Shown here: in pieces, positions 1,231-3,676 of the stretch
Numbering within the stretch: the first letter of the stretch is position 1
Layout: every line of letters starts with the position of its first letter
IMG/VR virus record: IMGVR_UViG_3300031972_000143
Coordinates: 1 to 21,916 of that record
Origin: a virus
Direction: 5' to 3' (one strand)
Length of the DNA stretch: 21,916 bases
Notes under the pieces: generated by a model
Told to the model about the DNA's origin: nothing
Database searches by the model: none
Seen by the model: only the letters and a program-made list of their open reading frames with translations
Translations under genes and position numbers: made by a program

Positions 1231-1458
1231 ATGGCTGCAAGACACAAATACAGACTGCAATGTCAGACAATTAATAAACAGAATAAACTTCCTTGTAAGG
1301 CTTCTGGAATATTGATGAAGAATGGTAACATTAGATGCAGAATGCATGGTGGCTGGAGTACAGGACCTAAAACACCTGAAGGTAAAGCGAAAGCATTACT
1401 GAATTTAAAACAGAATAATAATGACCAAAAAACTAGAATTAACAGTACAGATAGCTGA
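1231..1458 (+). CDS. HGGxSTG-domain small protein, putative zinc-binding
   Basis: A 75-residue basic protein carrying the HGGWSTGPKTPEGK signature at about residues 39-52, the hallmark of the HGGxSTG family often encoded beside phage terminase small subunits. Cys11, Cys22, Cys36 and His39 (C-x10-C-x13-C-x2-H) are spaced so that they could hold one zinc ion, which would fit a small nucleic-acid-binding fold. The biochemical role is not established to my knowledge. It starts at ATG two bases after a TAAAACCGT repeat, with no ribosome site I can see, and its 3' end overlaps the terminase small subunit by 38 bases, so the two are likely co-expressed. A link to packaging is inferred from that neighbour. 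Confidence 0.72.
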   Translation: MAARHKYRLQCQTINKQNKLPCKASGILMKNGNIRCRMHGGWSTGPKTPEGKAKALLNLKQNNNDQKTRINSTDS

Positions 1459-1840
1459 TGATATTGAGCGTATGTTGATGAATGGTACTCCTTTAACTAC
1501 CATTTGCCAAAACAAAGATGCGCCAAGCTTATCTAAAGTTTATGACTGGATCAGATCCGATAAGGAATTTGCGGACAGAATACTGACTGCTCGTAAGATA
1601 GCAGCTCAAACATATCTTGATAAGATGATTACTGAATTAGAGAATGCTGACAACAAAAGCATTGCAGTAACAAGAGAGAAGTTAATTCATTATCGATGGA
1701 TGGCTAGTAAGCTTGTTGCAATCTATGGAGACAAACAACAAGTCGAAATAGATCAGAAGGTTGAGATAACCTGGAATGATCCTGACGTTGATAAGACTTA
1801 TGAGAATGAGATTAAGAATGTTTCAGAGTTGGGTAGCTAA
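1421..1840 (+). CDS. terS: Terminase small subunit (Sf6 gp1-like)
   Basis: A 139-residue protein with the pattern of Sf6-type terminase small subunits. An N-terminal helix-turn-helix (about 9-50: IADDIERMLMNGTPLTTIC, a Pro/Ser turn, then VYDWIRSDKEFADR) is followed by a helical oligomerisation region (REKLIHYRWMASKLVAIYGDK, 85-105) and a short acidic tail. The family recognises the viral packaging site and feeds DNA to the large subunit, forming an oligomeric ring. The gene overlaps the HGGxSTG gene by 38 bases and is followed, after 263 noncoding bases and two small genes, by the large subunit. No strong ribosome site precedes the ATG, so translation may depend on coupling. This is not the T7 gp18 type, which fits a packaging module exchanged relative to the T7-like head genes. 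Confidence 0.85.
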   Translation: MTKKLELTVQIADDIERMLMNGTPLTTICQNKDAPSLSKVYDWIRSDKEFADRILTARKIAAQTYLDKMITELENADNKSIAVTREKLIHYRWMASKLVAIYGDKQQVEIDQKVEITWNDPDVDKTYENEIKNVSELGS

Positions 1841-1913
1841 CACACAAACATAGTTCTCGCACACGACATGAGGTTCGAATGATTCTAATGTGCAGACAAT
1901 ATGTAGGAGTTAG

Positions 1914-2073
1914 TACCGATACCGTACAAGAATTTAAATAAGCTATTGTTTCTACCGTAGAGCGATTGCCTGACGTGCAATGTCGTTTACTTTTACAGCA
2001 TTTGTTCAACGTTTTTTGCAGAGGACCATACCCCAAAAAGTAGCCGCCAGGTCCAATACATAAACTATCGGTA
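1914..2073 (+). ncRNA. Candidate structured RNA closed by an 8-bp stem
   Basis: TACCGATA at 1914-1921 is the exact reverse complement of TATCGGTA at 2066-2073. Inside lie two further stems: ATTGC/GCAAT with a 7-base loop (1965-1981) and GGACC/GGTCC with a 22-base loop (2023-2054). The nesting resembles a multi-branched RNA, but such short stems can occur by chance. The strand is assumed from transcription direction. Confidence 0.22.
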
Positions 2074-2080
2074 AGTTAAA

Positions 2081-2101
2081 CAAACAGACGGACAGACAAA
2101 C
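2081..2101. repeat. Near-perfect mirror repeat, T-free, just before a start codon
   Basis: Arms CAAACAGAC and CAGACAAAC flank GGA, giving mirror (not inverted) symmetry with one mismatch. The tract contains no T and occupies the place where a Shine-Dalgarno would be expected for the ATG at 2104. It would make an unstructured A/C-rich leader. Confidence 0.5.
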
Positions 2102-2103
2102 CT

Positions 2104-2292
2104 ATGACTAAATATATTAAAGATAAATATAAGAATGTTACCGCCATCAGTTTCAAAGCATACGATAATGATTTGATTATTAATTTTTCAGGATTTGAAA
2201 ACGAAGAAGATGTTGAGGACTTTTGCGAATTTGTCTTTAACAGAATTTATATGAGATCTAACTTTGGAGATAATCCACCAACGGTTCACTAA
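2104..2292 (+). CDS. Hypothetical acidic small protein
   Basis: A 62-residue protein I do not recognise. It has alternating hydrophobic residues at 14-30 (AISFKAYDNDLIINFSGF) suggesting beta strands, followed by an acidic helix (NEEDVEDFCEFVFNRIY) and a short disordered tail. There is no membrane segment. The ATG has no Shine-Dalgarno; an A/C-rich T-free leader precedes it instead. It sits between the structured noncoding block and a micro membrane protein, upstream of the terminase large subunit. Codon use and composition match its neighbours, so I accept it as real. Function unknown. Confidence 0.6.
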   Translation: MTKYIKDKYKNVTAISFKAYDNDLIINFSGFENEEDVEDFCEFVFNRIYMRSNFGDNPPTVH

Positions 2293-2294
2293 GT

Positions 2295-2405
2295 ATGATG
2301 AATTTCATAAATGAATTAAGATTTAAAATAGAATGTCTTTGGCTTGATCATCCTTTGGTAATGATTTTTGCACTCGGATTTATATTAGGTGCAATTATAT
2401 TTTAA
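2295..2405 (+). CDS. 36-residue single-span membrane protein
   Basis: Reading ATG ATG from 2295 gives 36 residues: an amphipathic N-terminus (MMNFINELRFKIECLWLDH) and one hydrophobic stretch of about 17 residues (PLVMIFALGFILGAIIF) running to the C-terminus, with a small-residue GxxxG motif that could help packing in the membrane. The stop codon overlaps the terminase large subunit start by one base (TAATG), so translation of the two is probably coupled. It begins two bases after the previous stop. I do not recognise the family; small phage membrane proteins include holins, spanin-like parts and envelope modifiers, and none can be chosen on sequence alone. Confidence 0.55.
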   Translation: MMNFINELRFKIECLWLDHPLVMIFALGFILGAIIF

Positions 2406-3676
2406 TGAAAATCCAAATTCCGTACACGCCACGAAAGCATCAGGCATACATACATCAAGAATTAGACAAGTACAGATACGCTGTGCTTTGCTGTCATAGA
2501 AGATTTGGCAAGACCGTTATGGTTTTGAACCATTTAATTCGTGCAGCCTTAACAAATAAAAATCATGCTCCAAGACTAGCTTACATTGCTCCAACTTATA
2601 AACAGGCAAAAAGCATCGCTTGGGATTACTTAAAATTTTATACTAAAAATATTCCAGGCACGAAATGGAACGAAAGTGAGTTAAGATGTGATTTAGTTAA
2701 TGGCTCTAGGATAACCTTATTATCTTCAGAAAATTTTGACAGTATAAGAGGAATTTACTTAGACATGGTTGCAATCGATGAACTTGCTCAGGTTTCGCAA
2801 GGATTGATTGATGAGGTAATCACACCAGCTTTATCAGACAGAAAAGGCAAAATGTTTCTAATAGGTACGCCTAAAGGAATGAACAACATATTCTATGATT
2901 ATTATAATAAAGCTCAGGCAGATCCTAAATGGTTTCTATATAAAGCTAAAGCTTCTCAAACAAACATTGTTGACGAAGATGAGCTAGACGCTGCTTTGTC
3001 CGTAATGGGTAAAGCTAAATTTGACCAAGAATATGAATGCTCATTTATTGGCAATATAGAAGGCTCTATCTATGGCGAACTAGTCCAGGATTTAGATGAC
3101 GATGGTAAGATAGGATCTGTTCCTTATGATCCAAGTTTACCAGTAAATACTGCTTGGGATATTGGCTATAACGATAGTACCTCTATTATTTTTTTCCAAC
3201 TGCTAAACCACCAGATTAATATCATTGAGACGTATGAGGATGATAACGAAGCGTTACCTCACTATATAAAATTTTTACAAGACAAAGATTACATTTATGA
3301 CACTCACTATGGACCATTTGATTTGGACCAGACGGAGTTTAGTAACGGTAAAACAAGAAGAGAAATAGCAGCAGCTCTTGGAGTTAGATTTAGATTAGCG
3401 CCAAGACTAGCATTAGAAGATGGCATTCATGCGGTTAAGATGTTGTTGCCAAGATGCAGAATAGATAGTGATAACTGTTCGGATCTACTTTTATCTCTCA
3501 GACATTATCATAGAAAGTTTAATGATAAGGAAAGAATTTTTAAACCAAAACCCGTTCACGATTGGAGTTCACACATGATGGATGCTCTGAGATGTCTTGC
3601 AACTGGAATTGAAGAAAATAAAGCAACTAACAAAAACCTACAACGTATAGCCGATAGTAACTATCAAATTATATAA
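2405..3676 (+). CDS. terL: Terminase large subunit
   Basis: A 423-residue packaging motor. The N-terminal ATPase shows Walker A HRRFGKT (31-37), a Q-motif-like QAYIHQ region before it, Walker B MVAIDE (121-126) with the catalytic Glu, and the coupling motif FLIGTPKG (151-158). The C-terminal RNase H-like nuclease shows AWDIGYNDSTS (250-260) with its first metal-binding Asp252 and the terminal HDWSSHMMDALR (385-396) carrying the last acidic residue. The protein drives DNA into the prohead through the portal and cuts the concatemer. It is clearly shorter than T7 gp19 (about 586 residues) and has the length and nuclease ending of headful-type P22/Sf6-like terminases, matching the small subunit found here. 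Translation probably couples to the 36-residue membrane protein through TAATG. Confidence 0.95.
   Translation: MKIQIPYTPRKHQAYIHQELDKYRYAVLCCHRRFGKTVMVLNHLIRAALTNKNHAPRLAYIAPTYKQAKSIAWDYLKFYTKNIPGTKWNESELRCDLVNGSRITLLSSENFDSIRGIYLDMVAIDELAQVSQGLIDEVITPALSDRKGKMFLIGTPKGMNNIFYDYYNKAQADPKWFLYKAKASQTNIVDEDELDAALSVMGKAKFDQEYECSFIGNIEGSIYGELVQDLDDDGKIGSVPYDPSLPVNTAWDIGYNDSTSIIFFQLLNHQINIIETYEDDNEALPHYIKFLQDKDYIYDTHYGPFDLDQTEFSNGKTRREIAAALGVRFRLAPRLALEDGIHAVKMLLPRCRIDSDNCSDLLLSLRHYHRKFNDKERIFKPKPVHDWSSHMMDALRCLATGIEENKATNKNLQRIADSNYQII

Follow-up and report, generated by a model that had tools for sequence, protein, structure and literature searches.

Comparison with described packaging sites

The closest described systems are the cos sites of lambda-like phages, which, in the available part of the source, span about 200 bp and combine repeats bound by the terminase small subunit (TerS) with a cut region of 12 nt that is variable in its right half (PMC4669245). 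The cohesive ends of lambda and of PaP3, a podovirus with a small TerS, are G+C-rich, and a 20-mer PaP3 cos oligonucleotide is itself bound by TerS, as stated in the available part of that report (PMC9611059). In headful packaging of the Sf6/P22 type, the excerpts of the literature at hand place the P22 pac site, a 22-bp sequence, within the TerS gene.

The locus analysed here, a gap between TerS and the terminase large subunit (TerL) gene of a pelagiphage, shares with the lambda-like cosQ-cosN-cosB arrangement its size and position beside the terminase genes, repeats at a set distance from a G+C-rich region of about 12 nt, and letters in that region that vary between relatives (PMC4669245 and PMC9611059, available parts). 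Unlike lambda-like cos, the pelagiphage site follows TerS and precedes TerL, its core is far more variable and a cut there is proposed, and its repeats are shorter, tandem, about 11–12 bp apart and free in sequence. In PaP3, also a podovirus, TerS is small and the cos sequence rich in G+C, but there the cos oligonucleotide itself is the TerS ligand. The pelagiphage TerS belongs to the Sf6 Pfam family, and headful packaging would suit the circles into which related isolates assembled, but in contrast to P22 pac the site lies outside the gene and consists of repeats and a variable core. No published description of the site was found among the open-access papers searched. In kind it belongs with packaging or control sites already known, as a variant of them, and the combination of a self-matching but free repeat pair with a swapped G+C-rich core is unusual.

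The window and its host

The window, the whole 21,916-base stretch of DNA that was analysed, is a virus record classed as linear. On one strand it carries the genes for TerS and TerL, one for a head-tail connector, and structural genes that by eye form a T7-like set. It is a relative of the HTVC010P-type pelagiphages; its TerL shares 68.8% identity with that of Pelagibacter phage HTVC028P and 57.4% with that of HTVC010P (57–69% across HTVC010P-type TerL). The features referred to below are as follows.

1421..1840, plus strand: gene for TerS, the terminase small subunit, an Sf6-type protein of 139 aa (PF20901, E 2.1e-20; PHROG 1482)
1841..2103, no strand assigned: noncoding gap, the whole site, without a conserved ORF and kept across relatives
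1858..1877, plus strand: element A, near-invariant block CGCACACGACATGAGGTTCG (alignments, pattern search; unique in the window at no more than 3 substitutions)
1874..1888, no strand assigned: TTCGAATGATTCTAA, one mismatch from the palindrome TTAGAATNATTCTAA of isolates' gaps (motif search)
1913..1927, plus strand: tandem direct-repeat position GTACCGATACCGTAC (GTAC at 1913 and 1924), weak here and strong in relatives
1933..1942, plus strand: A+T-rich block TTTAAATAAG (alignment)
1958..1964, plus strand: TAGAGCG block (alignment)
2023..2039, plus strand: conserved left flank of the core, GGACCATACCCCAAAAA (alignments)
2040..2053, no strand assigned: hypervariable G+C-rich core GTAGCCGCCAGGTC, proposed cut region (core statistics)
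2055..2074, plus strand: conserved right flank AATACATAAACTATCGGTAA (alignments)
2080..2103, plus strand: CA-rich leader ahead of the 62-aa ORF (alignment)
2104..2292, plus strand: 62-aa ORF, kept in relatives, without Pfam or PHROG match
2405..3676, plus strand: TerL gene (terminase large subunit, 423 aa; PF03237, E 9.7e-13)

Within the genome collection, a single contig, CACJRE010000020.1, has the 18-nt heart of element A; its source, the SAR11 single cell AG-447-N17, agrees with a SAR11 host for the window. The contig is of phage origin, and a host promoter motif was rejected as a reading of element A. It is a close relative of the window (loci L263/L264) inside the single-cell genome, and its ends form a perfect 2870-bp inverted repeat, probably an amplification chimera.

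A conserved, noncoding gap of fixed order

The preliminary description, made from the letters alone, had singled out a noncoding block of elevated G+C content, and this part of it holds: the 263-base gap runs from the TerS stop at 1840 to the next ORF at 2104, is the longest in the window by gene calls, and has a G+C content of 40.7% (40.0% over 1861–2100) against 32.9% for the window, where 2.9% of 240-nt windows reach 40%. The claim that it contains no gene also stands, since the sole inside ORF of at least 50 aa, on the minus strand at 1812–2036 (74 aa), has stops or frameshifts that break it in those relatives that were inspected. The TACCGTA repeat that had been noted is present as copies at 1920 and 1953. 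Beyond these points, comparison brought out the conserved segment 1858–1877, self-matching direct repeats at a fixed distance from the core, and the variable core itself.

Relatives were collected through an IMG/VR TerL search (80 loci of 269 confirmed), a TerS search (73 loci) and a pattern search with element A (55 stretches). Their alignments show a fixed order of TerS stop, element A, tandem repeats, A+T-rich block, TAGAGCG block and the C-run/A-run GGACCATACCCCAAAAA, followed by a core of 12–14 nt, a conserved AATACATAAA...CG flank, the CA-rich leader, the 62-aa ORF and TerL. On these comparative grounds, the gap is a conserved modular cis-acting DNA control site of HTVC010P-type pelagiphages.

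Element A lies close behind the TerS stop and is intact even next to a TerS of about 36% identity. The palindrome TTAGAATNATTCTAA was found with at most one mismatch in 7 of 12 records searched (the window, HTVC010P, HTVC035P, HTVC100P, HTVC203P, HTVC204P and Lederberg), always in the noncoding region upstream of the 62-aa ORF. We take it to resemble the alphaproteobacterial Irr iron-response box. Fur and Irr are both encoded by a SAR11 host genome, according to the available part of PMC2864753. Inverted motifs of the GATAA...TTATC type just ahead of the 62-aa ORF, and a CTANATNTAG-like palindrome directly upstream of it, were seen by eye as common to isolates, including HTVC024P, HTVC100P, HTVC203P, Greip, Lederberg and others.

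The 62-aa ORF has a homologue in HTVC100P, gp62 (L161:1936-2127), that is annotated as a DNA N-6-adenine-methyltransferase; the window's ORF has no Pfam match, and the label therefore looks like a misannotation. Several loci carry insertions between the CA-rich leader and this ORF, namely a C5-cytosine methylase (PF00145, L007:3783-4829), which by eye the insertions in L011 and L035 resemble, an MT-A70 adenine methylase (L036:347-778), and in L253 a gene without family assignment.

Tandem repeats that match within a phage

Past element A, the relatives carry two tandem direct repeats of about 8 bp, about 11–12 bp apart, that are alike within a phage and unlike between phages. Direct repeats of 8 nt with a 10–12-bp period in the 75 nt past element A exceed dinucleotide shuffles across 49 cluster representatives (Fisher 1.6e-21), and the excess has p below 0.05 in 21 of the 49, representatives that are not fully independent of one another. 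Two loci, L089 and L092, were removed as wrong TerS matches before these tests and before repeat typing. A self-match test, with the repeat position set by core distance (126–138 bp upstream), covered the 25 cluster representatives with a mapped core and left out the other 24 of the 49; copy 1 agreed with copy 2 at 6.72 of 8 positions in the same phage and at 4.59 of 8 in other phages (0 of 10,000 permutations). The fraction of pairs with at least 7 matches was 0.68 at 126–138 bp and at most 0.08 in ten other offset windows, none of which showed self-match.

Units among those seen are GTACC, GCACC, GTTACC, GTTAAC, TTGAACCA, TTCACTA, TGCACCA, TGTCACA and ATGGTAC. The distance from repeat to core is 127–135 bp in 33 of the 36 loci with a clear repeat, several of them near-identical; the window's own pair, which is weak (4/8), sits 127 bp before the core by coordinates. 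Element A lies at a variable 139–184 bp from the core (46 loci, again several near-identical). In the group with TerS identity of 36–41% (L168, L183, L194, L198, L199, L201 and L204), the repeat pair is found 151–154 bp before the end of the C-run.

TerS sequence does not set the repeat type by any simple rule. Hand-assigned types differ between near-identical TerS pairs: L004/L026 (97.8% identity), L183/L194 (96.7%, with TerL at 98.8%) and L125/L129 (96.3%). A gene exchanged along with the repeats was likewise sought by comparing G001 with G002; these genomes diverge mainly in tail genes, and no swapped regulator was seen.

A hypervariable core between conserved flanks

The core of 12–14 nt averages 67% G+C, compared with 32% and 31% in the two flanks (48 rows matched by regular expression), and 30 of 32 distinct cores have at least 60% G+C; L200 and L204 were dropped from the distinct-core statistics as wrong matches. 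Identity between cores is near-random, at 0.51–0.53 against 0.43 for shuffled cores, while the flanks are 50–80% identical. Even at flank identities of at least 90%, cores are at most 50% identical in 20% of pairs. The window and L002 illustrate this, having near-identical surroundings and different cores, GTAGCCGCCAGGTC and CCAGGCGGAGAGG respectively. The cores of cultured isolates are less G+C-rich (42% in HTVC024P, and low by eye in HTVC100P).

Two modules in cultured isolates

All 11 isolates searched have a TerS-family match, 9 of them above the Pfam cut-off. By coordinates, TerS lies about 2–3 kb from the gap, behind opposite-strand genes, in 10 of the 11, and it is adjacent to the gap in HTVC028P. 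The 10 isolates with a distant TerS retain the C-run, the core and (TA)n, and none of them has a clear repeat pair (at most 6/8 at 118–134 bp upstream). Element A was found in 0 of 11 isolates at no more than 3 mismatches over 19 bases; HTVC028P carries a shorter exact form of it, GCGTCATGAGGTT, together with repeats and the adjacent TerS. Since element A and the repeats are missing where TerS is distant and the core is kept, element A and the repeats appear to travel with an adjacent TerS and the core with the TerL side.

Alternative functions of the gap

The preliminary description had proposed a packaging site or a small structured RNA. Of these, packaging best fits the comparison in position, repeats, core and the link to TerS, and no test supports the RNA. 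A small structured RNA or RNA leader would suit a gap that is noncoding, conserved and G+C-elevated, and L168, of the group with TerS identity of about 36%, has the best local hairpin, a 7-bp stem with p 0.057. The long-range 8-bp stem that had been described does exist as the complement of TACCGATA (1914–1921) and TATCGGTA (2066–2073), but at chance level, as 33% of 1000 letter shuffles show; it is missing in close relatives, for example L010, where the 3' arm reads TTACCGATAA. The structure that had been suggested is not borne out otherwise: 6-mer inverted pairs give p=0.13, and as RNA each strand folds less well than its shuffles, of which 190 and 195 out of 200 equal or surpass it (z +1.56 and +1.66). 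Nor is pairing conserved across aligned relatives, the RNAalifold consensus of 23 sequences reaching −1 kcal/mol with 5 pairs, none compensatory, and the best strict inverted repeat was significant in 0 of 49 relatives. Rfam gave no match to the window at the gathering score, and a tRNA was likewise looked for and not found. The folding, covariation, inverted-repeat, Rfam and tRNA results together largely refute a structured RNA, which we consider highly improbable.

Two DNA-level alternatives bear on the same elements. In a late-operon control region, the chief alternative to packaging and one that we regard as possible if doubtful, the core and its flanks would hold the promoter that drives the rightward operon (made up of the 62-aa ORF, TerL and structural genes), while activator sites upstream of it would be formed by the repeats and element A. 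In isolates, small genes that read leftward lie on one side of the gap and the rightward late operon on the other, and a promoter that faces right is to be expected between them. Isolates that have no element A or repeats still keep the core, the C-run and (TA)n, and the unrelated methylase genes of L007 (PF00145) and L036 (MT-A70) stand just past the leader, first in the operon. Against such a function, no conserved sigma-70 −35/−10 pair was seen by eye in the alignments around the core, and the repeats and element A accompany an adjacent TerS, not the operon. To our knowledge, promoters also do not usually have a spacer that is hypervariable and G+C-rich, or an activator site at a set distance of about 130 bp. 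Packaging and late-operon control could both be true at once. A replication origin, in which a phage initiator would bind the repeats as iterons and an A+T-rich block after them would unwind, is unlikely: such a block does lie 5–8 nt downstream of the tandem repeats, and HTVC010P has a perfect DnaA-box-like TTATCCACA downstream of the core (by eye), but 10 isolates have no repeats, no gene was found exchanged with the repeats between G001 and G002, and cumulative GC skew turns 2–3 kb upstream of the gap, at the switch of gene direction (G001, G006), which leaves an origin at the gap unsupported by skew.

A candidate packaging-initiation site

We therefore tentatively favour a cos- or pac-like packaging-initiation region, in which the repeats would serve as the recognition site and the core as the cut region, a reading that we put at slightly below an even chance. 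TerS from the adjoining gene is predicted to bind the tandem direct repeats through neighbouring HTH domains one helical turn apart, perhaps aided by whatever reads element A. The fixed spacing of about 130 bp could then act as a ruler that places TerL on the core, which TerL would cut between the two conserved flanks. On this view the core would call for G+C without any set sequence, which is what ends that anneal should show. Binding by TerS, cutting by TerL and the preference for cohesive (cos) over headful (pac) cutting are all putative.

Several observations argue for packaging: the site lies between an Sf6-type TerS and TerL, the repeats match each other at one distance only from the core, the core is variable, G+C-rich and swapped between near-identical flanks, and element A and the repeats are missing where TerS is not adjacent, as in 10 of the 11 isolates. 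Against it stand the repeat type, which is not tied to TerS, the weak pair in the window and the isolate cores that are not G+C-rich. In the available excerpts of the literature, moreover, Sf6-type TerS proteins come from headful packagers and their binding in vitro is weak or nonspecific.

Contig ends, too, give no clear signal of packaging from the core. Most contigs run across it, and left ends within 5 kb of TerL (a tally of 61, or 60 contigs once L076, not a true contig end, is set aside) show no pile-up there and a mild excess near the TerS end. Among 58 contigs retrieved with the 62-aa ORF, none starts directly after the core. The right ends of L125 and L132 coincide exactly after TACAT, and the left ends of L005 and L253 fall 20–22 nt before the core, two cases each and too few to count. 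Related isolates were assembled as circles, and for one group the available part of PMC10504331 reports a 125-bp end repeat elsewhere, both of which weigh against a cut at the core; circular assemblies are compatible with headful packaging, and equally with cohesive ends that became joined in the library. In Skadi-1 (OP131302), the 125-bp terminal repeat, as given in the part of the report available, falls inside TerL and may be an assembly overlap, not a physical end.

SAR11, the host of HTVC010P-type phages, ranks among the most abundant bacteria of the sea. A defined candidate site of 260 bp makes packaging testable in cultured relatives, above all HTVC028P. Repeats that are alike within a phage and free between phages pose a puzzle for how terminase chooses its DNA. 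One answer, which we consider rather unlikely, is a freely changing packaging 'code', in which repeats that match each other and have no set sequence stand at a fixed distance of about 130 bp from a swapped 13-nt G+C-rich core cassette. If so, specificity would come from the agreement of the two repeats and from the spacing, and not from a set sequence that terminase recognises, and exchanges of the core could serve as markers of phage lineages in the ocean.
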